A DNA stretch of 64,000 nt from Beggiatoa leptomitoformis (GTDB lineage Bacteria > Pseudomonadota > Gammaproteobacteria > Beggiatoales > Beggiatoaceae). Below, piece after piece: positions 29,843 to 40,835 of the stretch. The translations under genes were made by a program, and so were the position numbers. The DNA lies in assembly GCF_001305575.3 (NCBI RefSeq), contig NZ_CP012373.2, positions 1,922,001 to 1,986,000 of the forward strand, in the 5' to 3' direction. Each line of letters opens with the position of its first letter. Position 1 is the stretch's first letter. The notes beneath the pieces were generated by a model that was not told the origin of the DNA, did no database searches, and was given only the letters and a program-made list of their open reading frames with translations.

Positions 29843-31162
29843 TTAAATAAAATAATAGCTAACTAAATCATAGCAGTACAATACAACTAATGATAATGCT
29901 ATCATCTTTAACGTAAAACGAATATTCCAACGAGTTATTAAATAACTACTCAGATGAAAACGCCCTTGCATCATCAAGTGCATTGCAGAAAAAGGCGTAC
30001 CAGAAACCCCTAACCCCCAGCCCATCAAAAAAGTCATACCCAACAAATTAGGGTCATGCGGAATAGGTAAAAATAAACTGCTTAACGTAGTGATGCTAAT
30101 TAATGGATGCACACCAATCAGGGCAATCAATAAAATAACGAACAACAATAACGTTGCTTCTAACAGTCCAAAATGACTCAACGGTAATTGAATCATCGTT
30201 ATTTGCAAAACACTACTAATGCCTGCTGCCATCACCCCCGCCGCCAGAAATAACAATAATTCGCCTGACATTGTTGGTAAATTATGGGTAATGTGCATAA
30301 AAATCTGATGAAAAGTGGCGGGTAATCCCTGTTGTAAACTTAAAACAATAACAACTAATACAATGGGTAACAACGTAATCAACGTTAAAACAGGTAATTG
30401 CGGAAAAAGAAAATGCACCAACACAACACAAACCGCTAGTAATGACGGTACCCACAAAGAGGCAAAGTGCATAGGATAACCAACAAAATGCTGGCTTTCT
30501 GCTTCACTCACTAGCTCATGTCCTGTCAACCACAATCCACACAACGCTAAGGGCAATCCCATTGCCATCAGTAATAAAAAATTAATATGCGGAATATAAA
30601 GATAAATAACCGCCATCGCTGCAAAAAAAGGCGACCATAAAACCGCCATTGCAAAAGCGCGTGATAAAATAATAGCTTGTTGACGGCTTAAACCAGTTTG
30701 ATGGGCTGCCAAACGGTCGCCCATAATAACCAATACAGACATATTAATAAAAAAACCAAAGAGATGCACACCATACAAAGTCCGTAACAACGCCGCTTTT
30801 CCTGTAGGCAAGGTTTCATGTTTATGTAAGCGTGGTTGTGTTACCAAGCGCAAAAAACCGACCGCAGCCAACATTGCCAATACCGCTTGATTAATAGAAA
30901 CCGCAGCCACTAAAACTGCTGTCTTGCCTTGTGATAAGCTAAAGAACATACAAATAAAGCCTATCGTTAAAATAATCCAAACTTGATATTTTTGCTGACG
31001 AGAGACCCGTTTAAATAATAAAATCCCTGCCAACCATGCACAAATCCCCGCACCTAATGGGCTTACGAAGCCTGTTAAACCGTGAATAGTTGATAAACAA
31101 ATCATAGAAAAAAGTAAAATACCCGCAATGCTTAACACCGCAGAATGTTTTTTATGCGTCAT
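29843..31162 (-). CDS. Polytopic membrane protein, possible ion/carboxylate permease
   Basis: 439 residues with about 11-12 hydrophobic helices and few charges. Stretches such as GVHLFGFFINMSVLVIMGDRLA and MTFLMGWGLGVSGTPFSAMHLM, in two similar halves, suggest a member of the broad ion transporter superfamily that includes ArsB, NhaD and CitM-type carriers. I cannot name a family or substrate. The gene stands alone, converging on HMG-CoA lyase. Confidence 0.6.
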   Translation of the reverse strand: MTHKKHSAVLSIAGILLFSMICLSTIHGLTGFVSPLGAGICAWLAGILLFKRVSRQQKYQVWIILTIGFICMFFSLSQGKTAVLVAAVSINQAVLAMLAAVGFLRLVTQPRLHKHETLPTGKAALLRTLYGVHLFGFFINMSVLVIMGDRLAAHQTGLSRQQAIILSRAFAMAVLWSPFFAAMAVIYLYIPHINFLLLMAMGLPLALCGLWLTGHELVSEAESQHFVGYPMHFASLWVPSLLAVCVVLVHFLFPQLPVLTLITLLPIVLVVIVLSLQQGLPATFHQIFMHITHNLPTMSGELLLFLAAGVMAAGISSVLQITMIQLPLSHFGLLEATLLLFVILLIALIGVHPLISITTLSSLFLPIPHDPNLLGMTFLMGWGLGVSGTPFSAMHLMMQGRFHLSSYLITRWNIRFTLKMIALSLVVLYCYDLVSYYFI

Positions 31163-34367: not shown

Positions 34368-37300
34368 ATGCGTAGAACACAATACCCTGATTCATGGGTT
34401 ATCAAAATTAGGCAATACATCACTTCCTTTAGTATTTACACCCTGATTATTTTTGGATTCTTAGCCCAATCAGCAATGGCCGCGCCTAAACTGCTGATTT
34501 CAGGCTATCTTGCTAATCCGCAAAGTACAGATAGCCCTTATGAATATGTCCAACTAATTGCTGTTGAAAACATTGATTTTTCTGTCACCCCCCACGCCGT
34601 TGTTTTTACCAACAATGGCACGGCAACCAGCAACGGCTGGGTAGCAGGTGGCGCGCTCACTTATGGGTTTAACCTCACGACAGGTACACTGAACGCGGGC
34701 GACATTGTCTATGTTGGTGGTTCTGGCAAACTGATTAATGGCAGCGGTAGTACGGATATTTCTAGTGCAACATGGCTAAACGCAATTAACACCGCAACCA
34801 CCGCAGGCAACAGCTTCGGCACAGCCGCATCTAGTGGCGTGTTAGGCAATGGCGGCGGAAATGCAGATGGGATTGCTATTTTTGATGTCGCAGTGAGCAG
34901 TATTACTGCTAGCACAGTCCCTGTAGATGCGGTTTTTTTTGGAACAGGTGTCGGTTCTGCAAAACCCGCAACTGGGGGTTATACATTACCTACCAATGAC
35001 TTATATGATAATGCACAAGGTACATTTGGCAATGGTACAAATACCTTTATTTTTTCAGACCCAGCAGGTTCTGGGTTTACGAAACTAACAGGGGTTTACA
35101 ATACAAATACAGCAACATGGACAACGGCACGTACAGGTTCATCGATTACTTTGTCAACAAGTTCTGTTCTAAGCGATATTACAACTGCTATTACACTCGC
35201 AACAACCGATACCGCCCCTACAGTTATTTCATCAGTCCCTAGTGACAGTGCGACCAATGTCGCAACCAGCAGTACCATCACCTTAAACTTTGACGAACCC
35301 GTTGATTTAACGGCTGCTGCGGTGACAGTAGAGTGTCCTACTGCAACGGCGCAATCTTTTACTGGGTTACCTGCCAATAACGTCAGTACGGTTATCTTAA
35401 CCCCCAGTACGACGCTACCTAATACAACAAGTTGTACCGTAACCGTTATTGCAGGACAAGTGACAGATAAAGACGGTACAGCCGATAATATGGCAACTAA
35501 TCAGATAATTAGTTTTACGACCATTGCCGCTCCTGTAGGTACAGCACCTAGTATTAGTTTTGGTACGAATACAGATGATTATATTGATGGTGGTGTCAGC
35601 ATCGCGCCTGCCTCTCCTTTTGCCATTACAGCCGCACTGAACGATAGCACTGACGCAGTTAAAAACGCAGGGATTGATTTTATTATTGCTGATAGTGATG
35701 GCATTGCTACAACCAGCGTAACGGCGAGTAGTAGTAACAGCAGTGTTGTTCCCAATACCAATTTAACCATTGCAGGTAGTGGTACAGCCGCCGTCAATGT
35801 AAAAATTAATCCCGTTGGTGTTGGTTATAGCACGATTACCGTTACCGTTAGTGATGGCACAAATATGGCTGATTATGTATTGAATTATGCGGTTTCGGCT
35901 GCCTCAACAACACCAACCACAACCCGTTTTCACAGTGGCAAAGCAGATGCCTCCAGCGCAATAGCCATAGACACGGATTACATGCTGGTTGCTGATGATG
36001 AAGACCAAACGATTCGTTTATACAATCGTGCTAATTCAGGATTACCTGTCGCGAGCTTTGATTTCACCAGCAGTTTAGGTCTAAGTGGCAGTTCAGAAGT
36101 GGATATTGAAGCCTCCACCCGTGTTGGGAATAGCCTTTACTGGTTAGGTTCACACAGTAATAACAGTTCGGGAAATGATAAACCCAATCGTGAACGGTTA
36201 TTTACAACAACATTAAGCGGTACAGGCACAACTGCCACACTGACATTTGAGCATTATTATAAATATCTTGAAGACGATTTAATCGCATGGGACAGTAGCA
36301 ATGCACACGGATTAGGTGCAAATTTCTTCGGTCTTAGTGCCAGTGCGGCCGCAGGGGTTATTCCTGAAACAACGGGCGGTTTTAATATAGAAGGTTTTAG
36401 CATTGCCCCAAATAGTACAGATACAGTTTATCTTGCTTTTCGCGCCCCTATCGTTCCTACCAACACACGCACCAAAGCCTTAATTATCCCCGTAACAAAT
36501 TTTACAACGCTTGGCGATGCGTCGGGTGGTGTATCAGGCTCTGCCACGTTTGGCGCACCGATTCAATTGGAATTGGGCGGACGGGGTATTCGGAGCATGG
36601 AATGCAACACAGCCGGATGTTTACTGATTGCAGGCTCTGCGGATGGGACGGGCAATTTTAAACTTTACACATGGTCAGGCAATGCGCTGGATACACCTGA
36701 TGAACGCAGTACGAATTTACCCATTATTACCGATGGCAGTTATGAAACCATTGTGGCATTACCCACAGGTGCAACATTAACCGCTTGGGATAATCAAGAC
36801 GTGCAATTTTTAATCGACACAGGAGACATGATTTATTACGCCGATGGGACGATTGCGAAAGATTTACCCAATAGTAATCATAAAAAATTCCGTAGCGAAA
36901 TTGTGAATTTAGGCACACCGCCTGTTATCAGTAAAATTCATACGTTACAAGGTAATGGTGCGGCTACCAGCCTTACAGGAACGCAAGTAATAGAAGGGAT
37001 TGTTGTTGGTGATTTTCAAGGCAGTACTGAGGGCAAAGGTTTTTATGTTCAAGAAGAAGATGCCGATATTGATGCAGATGTGACAACGTCCGAAGGGATT
37101 TTTGTTTATTGCAATACATGTACAACGGCTGTGAGTGTTGGCGATAAAGTACGAGTAACAGGCACGATTAGCGAATACAGCAATCAAACCCAATTAGGGG
37201 GCACACTAAGCATTAACGTTTTAAGTACAGGAAACAGCTTACCCAGTGCCTCAACGGTTACACTTCCTGTTCCATCAGCCATCGCAGGAGTGGATTATTT

Positions 37301-40300
37301 AGAACGGTTTGAAGGCATGTTAGTGATTTTCTCGCAAACATTGTATGTTTCCAGTAATTACACTTTAGGACGTTATGGTGAAATATTACTGTCCGCAAAT
37401 GGGCGATTGTCACAGCCAACGAATGTCACCACACCGGGTGTTAACGCGAGTACCTTACAAGCGCAAAACCTGCTCAATCAAATTACCTTAGATGACGGTC
37501 TAACCAGCCAAAACCCAGACCCTGCACCACATGGCTTAAGTGCCAGTCATTCAATTCGTGGTGGCGATACCGTGACAGGTTTATCAGGAATTTTAAATTA
37601 CAACTACAACTTATATCGTGTACAACCCACCGCTAGCGTCAGTTTTATCGCCAGTAACCCACGCACGGCAACCCCTACAAGCGTTGGTGGAACGGTAAAA
37701 GTGGCTAGTTTCAATGTCCTAAATTACTTTAATACCTTTACAGCATGTACGCTAGGCGTAGGCGGTACCGCGAATAATGATAATTGCCGTGGTGCAACTG
37801 ATGCGACAGAATTTGCGCGTCAACGGGCAAAAACAATTGCGGCAATTCAAGCAATTAACGCTGATATTGTGGGTATTATGGAAATGGAAAACGATGGCTA
37901 TGATGCAAGCAGTGCGTTACAAGATTTAGTTAATGGTTTAAATAGTGCAATGGGAGCAGATACCTACAGTTTTATCGACCCTGATACAGCACTTAGTACA
38001 GTCAACGTGATGGGAACGGATGCAATTAAAGTTGCCTTGATTTATAAATCCGCTGTTGTTACCCCCGCAGGGGCAGCGATGACTAGCACGGATGCAATTT
38101 TTGACCGTCGTCCTCTAGCACAAACCTTTCAAGTTGGAATAGAAAAATTCACGGTTATTGTCAATCACTTTAAATCTAAAGGCAGTTGTCCTACAACAGG
38201 CACAGATACAGCAAATGAAGACAGTGGCGATGGACAAAGTTGTTGGAATGCAAAACGACAAACACAAGCCACAACCCTGTTGAATTTCATTGATAACACA
38301 GTAAAAGTCAACAGTGGCGATGATGATATATTAATCATTGGTGATTTAAATTCTTATGCTGAAGAAGACCCCATCACGTTAATTAAAGCAGCGGGTTATA
38401 CCAATTTAGTCACCGAACACAGTGGTGTTAATGCCTATGGTTATCAATATGATGGTTTATGGGGCTATTTAGACCATGCGTTAAGCAGTGCTTCACTAAC
38501 CCCACAAATTAATGGCGTAACAGATTGGCACATTAATGCAGATGAACCTATTTCTTTAGATTACAACACAGAGTACAAATCGGCAGGACAACTAACCAGT
38601 TTGTATGCTGCTGATGGTTATCGCTCTTCTGACCACGACCCTGTTGTGATTGGTTTAACCCCCACGGTAGCCTATCAATTAAGCCTTACAACAACAGGCA
38701 CAGGAACGGGAACAATTAGCAGTAGTGGCACACCTGCGGGAACAAGTTGTGGTACAAACTGCTTAACCTATGTCAGTACAAGCACCGTGAATTTGCAGGC
38801 AACACCCACAGGTGGCGCGAGTTTCTCAGGTTGGTCATGTACACCAACATTTGTATCAGGTAATACATTAACGGCTAACACCATTTGTGCTGCAACGTTT
38901 ACGGCAGCGGTTGTTACGCCAGTTACACCGCCCACATCAGGTGACTACAGCTTGGCTATTAAGGTCGTCGGAACAGGCAGTGGCACGATCAGTGGGACAA
39001 GTGCGGGCAATTATCCTAGTGGTACTCGTATCAGCTTAACCGCCCTAGCTAATGCTGATTCAGACTTTATCGGCTGGTCACCCAGCACTTGCGCAGCTAC
39101 ATTTGTGTTAGACGTAAACACAACTTGCACCGCTACGTTTGATTTAAAAGTTATACCGCAACAATACACCCTGAGTTTAACAACAACAGGGACAGGTTCA
39201 GGTGTCATCAGTGGTGCCAATGCGGGTACATATCCCAGTGGAACACTTATTAATCTAAGCGCGATTGCAAATTCTGATTCGCAATTTATCGCTTGGAATA
39301 ATGCACTGTGTGCGAGTCCATTTAATTTGACTGCTGACACAGTATGTATTGCACAATTTGAAAGTAACCCCGTAACCCCACCGCCACCAACAACATTAAG
39401 CTATACCCTTTATTTACAGACTACAGGGACAGGAACAGGGATGATTAATGGCACTGGTGCAGGCATGTACCCCAACGAAACGCTTATTAATCTGAACGCG
39501 ATTGCAAATTCTGATTCGCAATTTATCACTTGGAATAATGCACTGTGTGCAAGTCCGTTTACTTTAACCGCTGATACAAACTGTATTGCACAATTTGATA
39601 AATTACTCCCTACAACACCGCTCACTTACACCCTAACAGTTACACCTTCTCCTTTTGGAACAGTGCAAATGGCAAGCGTGACGTGTCCTGATGACTGCAG
39701 TGTTATCGTAGACAGTGGCACGATACTATCGCTCAACGCGATTGCTAATACAGGTTATCAATTTATCCATTGGACGGGTGATGCAAGCTGCGGTCAAACG
39801 GTAAATATGACAACTAATATCCATTGCGAAGCGGTGTTCATGCCCATTACTACCACAACAGCGACAACGCCACTATGTCCACTGACAGGTACAGTAAACA
39901 CCCTGTGCAATGCCCAATTGCGTGAAATAACCCAAGCACTTACCGTGTTACCACAAGGAAATATCAGCAATCTAGTAATTGCAACAACCGTTCTTAATCA
40001 AGGCTGGTTAAGCAATATTCTCGTTAAAACAACAGGACGTATAACAGGCGGGATTTTAACGGGTTATGTCCATAATCAAGGCATCTTGACAGACATAGAC
40101 TTTAAGGGTGGGTATTTACAAGGTGGGATTTTAGCAGGGGTTATTTTGAATAGTAGTTTAGTTGATGGTTATATTGCCAATGTCCGCTTTATGGAAAATG
40201 CCACACTGACAGGCGGGATTTTACAAGGGCGAATTTATGGCAACCCAAATGCGCCAGCCATGCTTAACAATGTTCGCATTAAAACGGGTAGTCATTTAAG

Positions 40301-40835
40301 CGGTGTGATTTTAGGCGAAAATGTGATAGTTGAAGACAATGTTATCATCGATAAAAACATCATATTACCCCGTTTAGATACCCTTACCGCTTATGATGCA
40401 ACAGGAAAAGTGATAACCGTCGACAGCCAATTTGTTGGTGGTATTTCCGTGCTTAATCAGGCCTATGTTATCAAAACAACCCAAAAATTAGCGGATACGG
40501 TCAACATCAGAGGACGTATATTCGTTGCCCCTGAACATGTGGGAAAAACCGCTGATTTATTTGTATATTCACCCTACTGGTATGCCGATAATCGCTTTAT
40601 TAGCTACTTTATGACAGATAGCAAAGGACAAATCTTTGCGTGGGACGAAAAACCCTTAAACCTAATCCCTTTTAAACAAAGTGTGGTTTTAGAACCCATT
40701 CAAGAAATGGATTTATACACAGGACACTTTGTAGCAATCGGCACGTTAAAAGTGGTTTTTGGTTATCGTTTATCTGACGGAACGCTGGTTATGCACAATG
40801 AACCCAGCACGATACACATAGAAATCCAACCATAG
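34368..40835 (+). CDS. Large secreted ExeM/NucH-type endonuclease with repeats and beta-helix-like C-terminus
   Basis: 2155 residues. A signal peptide (about residues 1-40, ending QSAMAA) is followed by a lamin-tail-like beta domain (KLLISGYLANPQ), an Ig-like Big_5 domain near 281-386 (SSVPSDSATNVATSSTITLN) and a DUF3616-like part near 520-845. Next come an OB-fold near 855-1065 (GIVVGDFQGS, GFYVQEED) and an endonuclease/exonuclease/phosphatase domain near 1110-1430. The last has active-site stretches VASFNVLNYF, GIMEMENDGYD, IGDLNSYAEEDP and SDHDPVVIG. Five cysteine-bearing beta repeats occupy about 1434-1830. The remaining 320 residues are a repetitive, bactofilin-like beta-helix region (TGGILTGYV, QGGILAGVI, TGGILQGRI) ending in a small beta domain. 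The nuclease core matches extracellular DNases. The tail may anchor it to the surface. Confidence 0.88.
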   Translation: MRRTQYPDSWVIKIRQYITSFSIYTLIIFGFLAQSAMAAPKLLISGYLANPQSTDSPYEYVQLIAVENIDFSVTPHAVVFTNNGTATSNGWVAGGALTYGFNLTTGTLNAGDIVYVGGSGKLINGSGSTDISSATWLNAINTATTAGNSFGTAASSGVLGNGGGNADGIAIFDVAVSSITASTVPVDAVFFGTGVGSAKPATGGYTLPTNDLYDNAQGTFGNGTNTFIFSDPAGSGFTKLTGVYNTNTATWTTARTGSSITLSTSSVLSDITTAITLATTDTAPTVISSVPSDSATNVATSSTITLNFDEPVDLTAAAVTVECPTATAQSFTGLPANNVSTVILTPSTTLPNTTSCTVTVIAGQVTDKDGTADNMATNQIISFTTIAAPVGTAPSISFGTNTDDYIDGGVSIAPASPFAITAALNDSTDAVKNAGIDFIIADSDGIATTSVTASSSNSSVVPNTNLTIAGSGTAAVNVKINPVGVGYSTITVTVSDGTNMADYVLNYAVSAASTTPTTTRFHSGKADASSAIAIDTDYMLVADDEDQTIRLYNRANSGLPVASFDFTSSLGLSGSSEVDIEASTRVGNSLYWLGSHSNNSSGNDKPNRERLFTTTLSGTGTTATLTFEHYYKYLEDDLIAWDSSNAHGLGANFFGLSASAAAGVIPETTGGFNIEGFSIAPNSTDTVYLAFRAPIVPTNTRTKALIIPVTNFTTLGDASGGVSGSATFGAPIQLELGGRGIRSMECNTAGCLLIAGSADGTGNFKLYTWSGNALDTPDERSTNLPIITDGSYETIVALPTGATLTAWDNQDVQFLIDTGDMIYYADGTIAKDLPNSNHKKFRSEIVNLGTPPVISKIHTLQGNGAATSLTGTQVIEGIVVGDFQGSTEGKGFYVQEEDADIDADVTTSEGIFVYCNTCTTAVSVGDKVRVTGTISEYSNQTQLGGTLSINVLSTGNSLPSASTVTLPVPSAIAGVDYLERFEGMLVIFSQTLYVSSNYTLGRYGEILLSANGRLSQPTNVTTPGVNASTLQAQNLLNQITLDDGLTSQNPDPAPHGLSASHSIRGGDTVTGLSGILNYNYNLYRVQPTASVSFIASNPRTATPTSVGGTVKVASFNVLNYFNTFTACTLGVGGTANNDNCRGATDATEFARQRAKTIAAIQAINADIVGIMEMENDGYDASSALQDLVNGLNSAMGADTYSFIDPDTALSTVNVMGTDAIKVALIYKSAVVTPAGAAMTSTDAIFDRRPLAQTFQVGIEKFTVIVNHFKSKGSCPTTGTDTANEDSGDGQSCWNAKRQTQATTLLNFIDNTVKVNSGDDDILIIGDLNSYAEEDPITLIKAAGYTNLVTEHSGVNAYGYQYDGLWGYLDHALSSASLTPQINGVTDWHINADEPISLDYNTEYKSAGQLTSLYAADGYRSSDHDPVVIGLTPTVAYQLSLTTTGTGTGTISSSGTPAGTSCGTNCLTYVSTSTVNLQATPTGGASFSGWSCTPTFVSGNTLTANTICAATFTAAVVTPVTPPTSGDYSLAIKVVGTGSGTISGTSAGNYPSGTRISLTALANADSDFIGWSPSTCAATFVLDVNTTCTATFDLKVIPQQYTLSLTTTGTGSGVISGANAGTYPSGTLINLSAIANSDSQFIAWNNALCASPFNLTADTVCIAQFESNPVTPPPPTTLSYTLYLQTTGTGTGMINGTGAGMYPNETLINLNAIANSDSQFITWNNALCASPFTLTADTNCIAQFDKLLPTTPLTYTLTVTPSPFGTVQMASVTCPDDCSVIVDSGTILSLNAIANTGYQFIHWTGDASCGQTVNMTTNIHCEAVFMPITTTTATTPLCPLTGTVNTLCNAQLREITQALTVLPQGNISNLVIATTVLNQGWLSNILVKTTGRITGGILTGYVHNQGILTDIDFKGGYLQGGILAGVILNSSLVDGYIANVRFMENATLTGGILQGRIYGNPNAPAMLNNVRIKTGSHLSGVILGENVIVEDNVIIDKNIILPRLDTLTAYDATGKVITVDSQFVGGISVLNQAYVIKTTQKLADTVNIRGRIFVAPEHVGKTADLFVYSPYWYADNRFISYFMTDSKGQIFAWDEKPLNLIPFKQSVVLEPIQEMDLYTGHFVAIGTLKVVFGYRLSDGTLVMHNEPSTIHIEIQP
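38670..39850 (+). repeat. Five tandem repeats inside the nuclease gene
   Basis: Each unit is about 65-75 codons with the pattern Y-x-L-x-L-TTGTGTG...NL-A-I-A...F-x-x-W...C...A-x-F, like bacterial InlB-type B-repeats with a Cys pair. Units three and four (about 39170-39360 and 39405-39600) are nearly identical at the DNA level, for example both contain ATTCTGATTCGCAATTTATC. This indicates recent duplication. Confidence 0.85.

Follow-up and report, generated by a model that had tools for sequence, protein, structure and literature searches.

To our knowledge, the way in which the surface and slime of filamentous and giant sulfur bacteria are furnished is largely unknown. A gene of Beggiatoa leptomitoformis codes for a predicted exported nuclease with a long C-terminal tail. 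It was analysed within a window of 64,000 nucleotides (contig NZ_CP012373.2, positions 1,922,001 to 1,986,000 of the forward strand) of the complete genome of 4,265,317 bases; coordinates below are those of the window. A plausible ribosome site (TAGGAG..ATG) precedes the reading frame and a Sec-type signal peptide with a predicted cut between AMA and AP is legible in the translation, in agreement with the secreted composite protein of 2155 residues described in the initial annotation. The flanking genes are of the housekeeping type, namely AIR synthase, formyltransferase and GTP cyclohydrolase I upstream and RNA 3'-phosphate cyclase, DUF3108 and DUF58 downstream, and no partner gene was seen in this neighbourhood. 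Elsewhere in the window, a reading frame of 439 amino acids (29843-31162, minus strand) had no Pfam match at E<=0.01. The parts of the protein are as follows.

34368-40835, plus strand: whole reading frame, 2155 residues, uninterrupted
34368-34484, plus strand: signal peptide, residues 1-39, read by eye in the translation, ribosome site upstream
34485-35207, plus strand: N-terminal region, residues 40-280, lamin-tail-like by eye alone
35208-35522, plus strand: Big_5 Ig-like domain, residues 281-385 (Pfam PF13205, E 6.1e-15)
35928-36977, plus strand: DUF3616 region, about residues 521-870, best stretch 665-775 (Pfam PF12275, E 1.1e-7)
36990-38660, plus strand: ExeM/NucH endonuclease, residues 875-1431 (NCBIfam NF033681, catalytic motifs)
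38673-39854, plus strand: five Cys-bearing InlB B-type repeats, about residues 1436-1829 (Pfam PF18998 in four significant stretches, fifth unit by eye)
39867-40358, plus strand: predicted beta-helix solenoid, about residues 1834-1997 (AlphaFold2; fold likeness to Ag43/TibA; kept with the end domain elsewhere)
40359-40832, plus strand: end domain, a predicted Ig-like beta-sandwich, residues 1998-2155 (predicted structure; common C-terminal module)

The Ig-like and DUF3616-like domains that had been placed ahead of the nuclease, and the Cys-bearing repeats placed behind it, were recovered with Pfam to the extent listed. The lamin-tail-like domain proposed for residues ~40-280 was not, as this stretch has no Pfam match at E<=1 and is only 25% identical to the orthologue of the same genus.

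The nuclease core itself is clear. Its match to the ExeM/NucH model NF033681 reaches 633.9 bits against a cut-off of 300, a Pfam EEP nuclease match covers residues 1139-1423, and the motifs NVLNYF, MEMEN, NHFKSK, GDLNSY, DHAL and SDHDPV are all present. Loss of catalytic residues, which would have spoken against the DNase proposed at the outset, was not observed, and the key residues of these motifs of the EEP/DNase I-like fold are also retained in the same-genus orthologue. In a sequence search of the PDB, 9sf8 and 9sf9 were the sole relatives found. Judged by its sequence, the gene product is predicted to be an exported DNase with an intact ExeM/NucH core.

In nuclease core, motifs and signal peptide the protein resembles the known ExeM/NucH endonucleases (NF033681; Shewanella oneidensis ExeM, PMC6085458), to which it adds long N-terminal domains, InlB-type repeats and a predicted tail of beta-helix and beta-sandwich. 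ExeM of S. oneidensis is anchored in the membrane by its C-terminus, where a GlyGly motif is found (PMC6085458), whereas the Beggiatoa protein has no GlyGly-CTERM end: it terminates in ..STIHIEIQP, where GG, hydrophobic helix and basic residues are absent, and scores 299.6 bits with the GlyGly-CTERM ExeM model NF033680, below the cut-off of 1300. No rhombosortase (TIGR03902) over the cut-off was found in its own genome, the best match (48 bits against 84) being at the level of a general rhomboid, and for Beggiatoa sp. PS, too, Haft and Varghese list none (PMC3237569). A GspD secretin is encoded in the genome, well over the cut-off.

The tail falls outside the NCBIfam ExeM models and is missing from most ExeM proteins of the order with a visible C-terminus, so that its description as foreign to known ExeM proteins holds. 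ExeM was identified above the cut-off in 16 of the 42 genomes of the order; among the 14 such proteins with a visible C-terminus, four carry solenoid and end domain (the present protein, that of the same genus and those of genomes G015 and G019) and ten lack this tail, three of them ending directly after the nuclease with no anchor. Since some carry it and others do not, the tail appears to be exchanged on the ExeM enzyme, which indicates that ExeM-type DNases swap their ends between lineages. When the two species of the genus are compared, no other part of the protein is as well conserved as the tail, with 72% identity in the solenoid and 69% in the end domain against 57% in the EEP core and 25% at the N-terminus. 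At another locus (L072), a protein shares the N-terminal region, the repeats and the tail with the DNase protein and has no nuclease.

The tail had been taken for a single bactofilin-like solenoid of 320 residues, a description that did not survive structure prediction. An AlphaFold2 model of residues 1830-2155, built with 28 related sequences (mean pLDDT 94.7, pTM 0.83), shows a beta-helix up to about residue 1997 followed by a compact beta-sandwich (~1998-2151), and the end domain modelled alone (pLDDT 94.7) again folds as an Ig-like beta-sandwich. In these models the tail consists of two parts, a beta-helix of ~165 residues and a separate Ig-like beta-sandwich of ~155 residues. Neither the protein nor 28 tail and end-domain relatives gave a bactofilin match with Pfam at E<=1, the solenoid showing just weak hexapeptide-repeat matches; bactofilin structures are not among the fold matches listed for the solenoid, an absence from the list that does not imply exclusion. 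Its nearest folds are autotransporter passengers, namely Ag43 (4kh3, Z 11.5, rmsd 3.7, 155 residues aligned) and TibA (4q1q, Z 11.4), followed by a pentapeptide protein (Z 9.2), phage tailspikes (Z ~9) and other beta-helices at 8-9.

As the passengers of Ag43 and TibA are self-associating, the beta-helix may stack or zip in the manner of Ag43, and the DNase would then polymerise or link filaments. Such self-association of the solenoid is possible, but as the explanation of the tail it is improbable, for beta-helices are widely alike, as the scores of the tailspikes and pentapeptide proteins illustrate, the solenoid is short, and in the same genome the end domain mostly occurs without it; with the bactofilin match also missing, the suggestion that the tail polymerises found no support. 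In its predicted fold the solenoid comes nearest to the beta-helices of Ag43/TibA (PMC8993888), but the Beggiatoa tail is short, is joined to a beta-sandwich, is used by varied proteins and lacks a C-terminal translocator barrel, the predicted protein end being the beta-sandwich.

For the end domain, nothing convincing was found by sequence in Pfam, NCBIfam or PDB, and no description of it in the open-access literature searched. A match of the tail to a known sorting or passenger domain, regarded beforehand as an argument against its being a new element, was not found for the end domain by sequence and is limited, for the solenoid, to the fold likeness given above. The best Foldseek matches of the end domain are the C-terminal carbohydrate (O-antigen)-binding domains of Wzt (E 4.4e-4, TM up to 0.51). 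Wzt, however, is part of a cytoplasmic ABC transporter and only ~10% identical, and other Ig-like folds score equally: in VIA-align Wzt (Z 8.1-8.3) is tied with ester-bond adhesin repeats (Z 8.0-8.5 overall), so that the kinship of the end domain is not settled.

The main point escaped the initial annotation: the end domain recurs as a module throughout the genome and throughout the family. The search for the tail on other proteins of the same genome, suggested there, was positive for the end domain, which occurs at 21 places with the tail as query (own locus included) and at 22 by profile. Most of these copies lack the solenoid, and for this reason the view that the end domain does no more than cap the beta-helix was discarded. 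Across the order the end domain was found in 40 of 42 genomes, including all 30 good ones, with 2 to 54 matches per positive genome (~645 when summed), and Thiomargarita, Thioploca, Parabeggiatoa and Marithrix are among the named records that carry it. Beyond the order it is very rare: the own genome was the only match among 398 genomes sampled from the phylum, and among 369 of the class it was found in four of the family and in two others, where the match was strong in one case (4e-21) and weak in the other (2.5e-5). Outside the order, an exported protein and a sulfatase have the domain at their end or close to it, and one copy follows closely on a signal peptide. Nothing points to an origin from phages or plasmids, since the whole protein had no relative in the viral-contig search and the end domain did not turn up in phage and plasmid collections at the sensitivity applied. 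The end domain is also present, together with Beggiatoaceae-like secreted proteins, on two short contigs (L099, L103) assigned to an 'Anaerolineaceae' MAG (4572_78); they are probably mis-binned and were therefore not counted as spread of the domain.

The position of the end domain is strongly biased. Among 77 distinct proteins or fragments whose stop is visible, 70 have no more than 20 residues between the domain and the stop, and 36 have exactly 3, the distance being near-fixed at 2-5 residues; the sample comprises the best-scoring loci with orthologues included, so these counts are not independent. Among 65 complete frames, 58 copies are C-terminal, five N-terminal and two were classed as internal, of which that in L036 in fact ends 22 residues before the stop and that in L012 is clearly internal. 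L012 (2856-7850) encodes a protein of 1664 amino acids with choice-of-anchor I, phytase-like and NadN-type nucleotidase parts and the end domain mid-protein. Some proteins carry tandem copies. The N-terminal and internal copies led to the rejection of a sorting signal bound strictly to the C-terminus, and the N-terminal and tandem ones favour a domain that binds over a signal that is processed. All three kinds of copy also weaken the idea that the end domain serves the type II or another outer-membrane machine as a recognition signal for export, with the proteins then released to the medium. The extreme C-terminal place of most copies, the signal-peptide-like N-termini of most complete frames and the GspD of the genome would agree with it, but some ExeM proteins of the same order have no end domain, and we know of no portable folded C-terminal domain that serves type II secretion as a shared signal; this role is unlikely.

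The end domain is reused on unrelated proteins, mostly at their extreme C-terminus. In the own genome it is found, in the manner of a generic portable module of exported proteins, on Big_1/invasin, NadN-type 5'-nucleotidase, VPS10/BNR, LRR, HYDIN-type Ig, sulfatase (two copies), InlB-repeat, RCC1 and papain proteins. The full unit of solenoid and end domain (query ~2-318 of 322) is reused in relatives as the C-terminus of many proteins, with NHL or two-component propellers among its passengers. Choice-of-anchor domains, which occur with varying C-terminal anchors, precede the end domain in L012 (I), L020 (D) and L075 (Q). The domain could also be an accessory resembling a carbohydrate-binding module, directed at substrates or foreign polymers such as detritus, mat polysaccharide or minerals and not at the own cell; its independence of position, the tandem copies and an Ig-like sandwich near the glycan-binding domain of Wzt and other binding folds are in line with this. 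We consider it rather unlikely all the same, as one common target agrees better with passengers whose substrates differ widely or are lacking (LRR, RCC1, BNR, nuclease, protease), and the near-fixed distance to the stop is at odds with it.

Portability, position, the choice-of-anchor neighbours and the missing classical anchor together point to a surface-retention module, and we hold it an even call, on these sequence grounds, that the tail is a portable module keeping the DNase at the cell surface in place of the usual anchor. Counted in its favour are the occurrence in 40 of the 42 genomes of the order with near absence elsewhere, the unrelated passengers, the full tail as C-terminus of many proteins in relatives, the high conservation of the tail between the two species of the genus, the lack of GlyGly-CTERM and of a rhombosortase over the cut-off, the presence of GspD and the place of Wzt among the nearest folds; the N-terminal and internal copies, the borderline and tied Wzt likeness and the ExeM proteins of the order without any anchor were counted against it. 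The DNase would pass through the envelope with the help of Sec and of the type II system encoded in its genome, whereupon the end domain would bind a component of the own cell surface or slime and the enzyme would stay on the filament, the solenoid acting as a rigid spacer or stalk, possibly with a self-association face. The ligand may be a glycan, for example O-antigen or a sheath polysaccharide, a guess prompted by the borderline Wzt likeness. In the Beggiatoa lineage the module would stand in for the GlyGly-CTERM anchor of Shewanella ExeM. As in the GlyGly-CTERM/rhombosortase and other C-terminal anchor systems (PMC3237569), a genome places one module, here mostly C-terminal, on many exported proteins that are otherwise unrelated; in contrast to GlyGly-CTERM, the end domain is predicted to be folded, has ~155 residues with no membrane helix or basic end, and is sometimes N-terminal or tandem. 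Unlike the rhombosortase systems it has no known processing enzyme, and neither a partner enzyme nor a receptor was found for it, which also counts against retention.

The C-terminal, portable position on many unrelated exported proteins is consistent with the display on filament or sheath proposed initially. More tentatively, the end domain may belong to an undescribed display system of the Beggiatoaceae, which through a surface glycan of the lineage would dress the filament with dozens of enzymes and adhesins including the DNase. Occurring in nearly all genomes of the family, with up to ~50 matches in a genome and with no Pfam or NCBIfam entry found, the domain would offer a handle on the surface proteome.

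Some further loci deserve mention. Two tandem, near-identical sulfatase genes for 724 amino acids each (L021, 1750-3924 and 4129-6303; G000:C1 ~659749-664302) both end in the end domain, and a weak relative outside the order (L141) has the same layout. A protein of 1059 amino acids (L024, 9135-12314; G000:C1 ~3.554-3.557 Mb) has repeated N-terminal domains, a piece of the solenoid and no recognised end domain, and a frame of 2313 amino acids near it also matches the solenoid.
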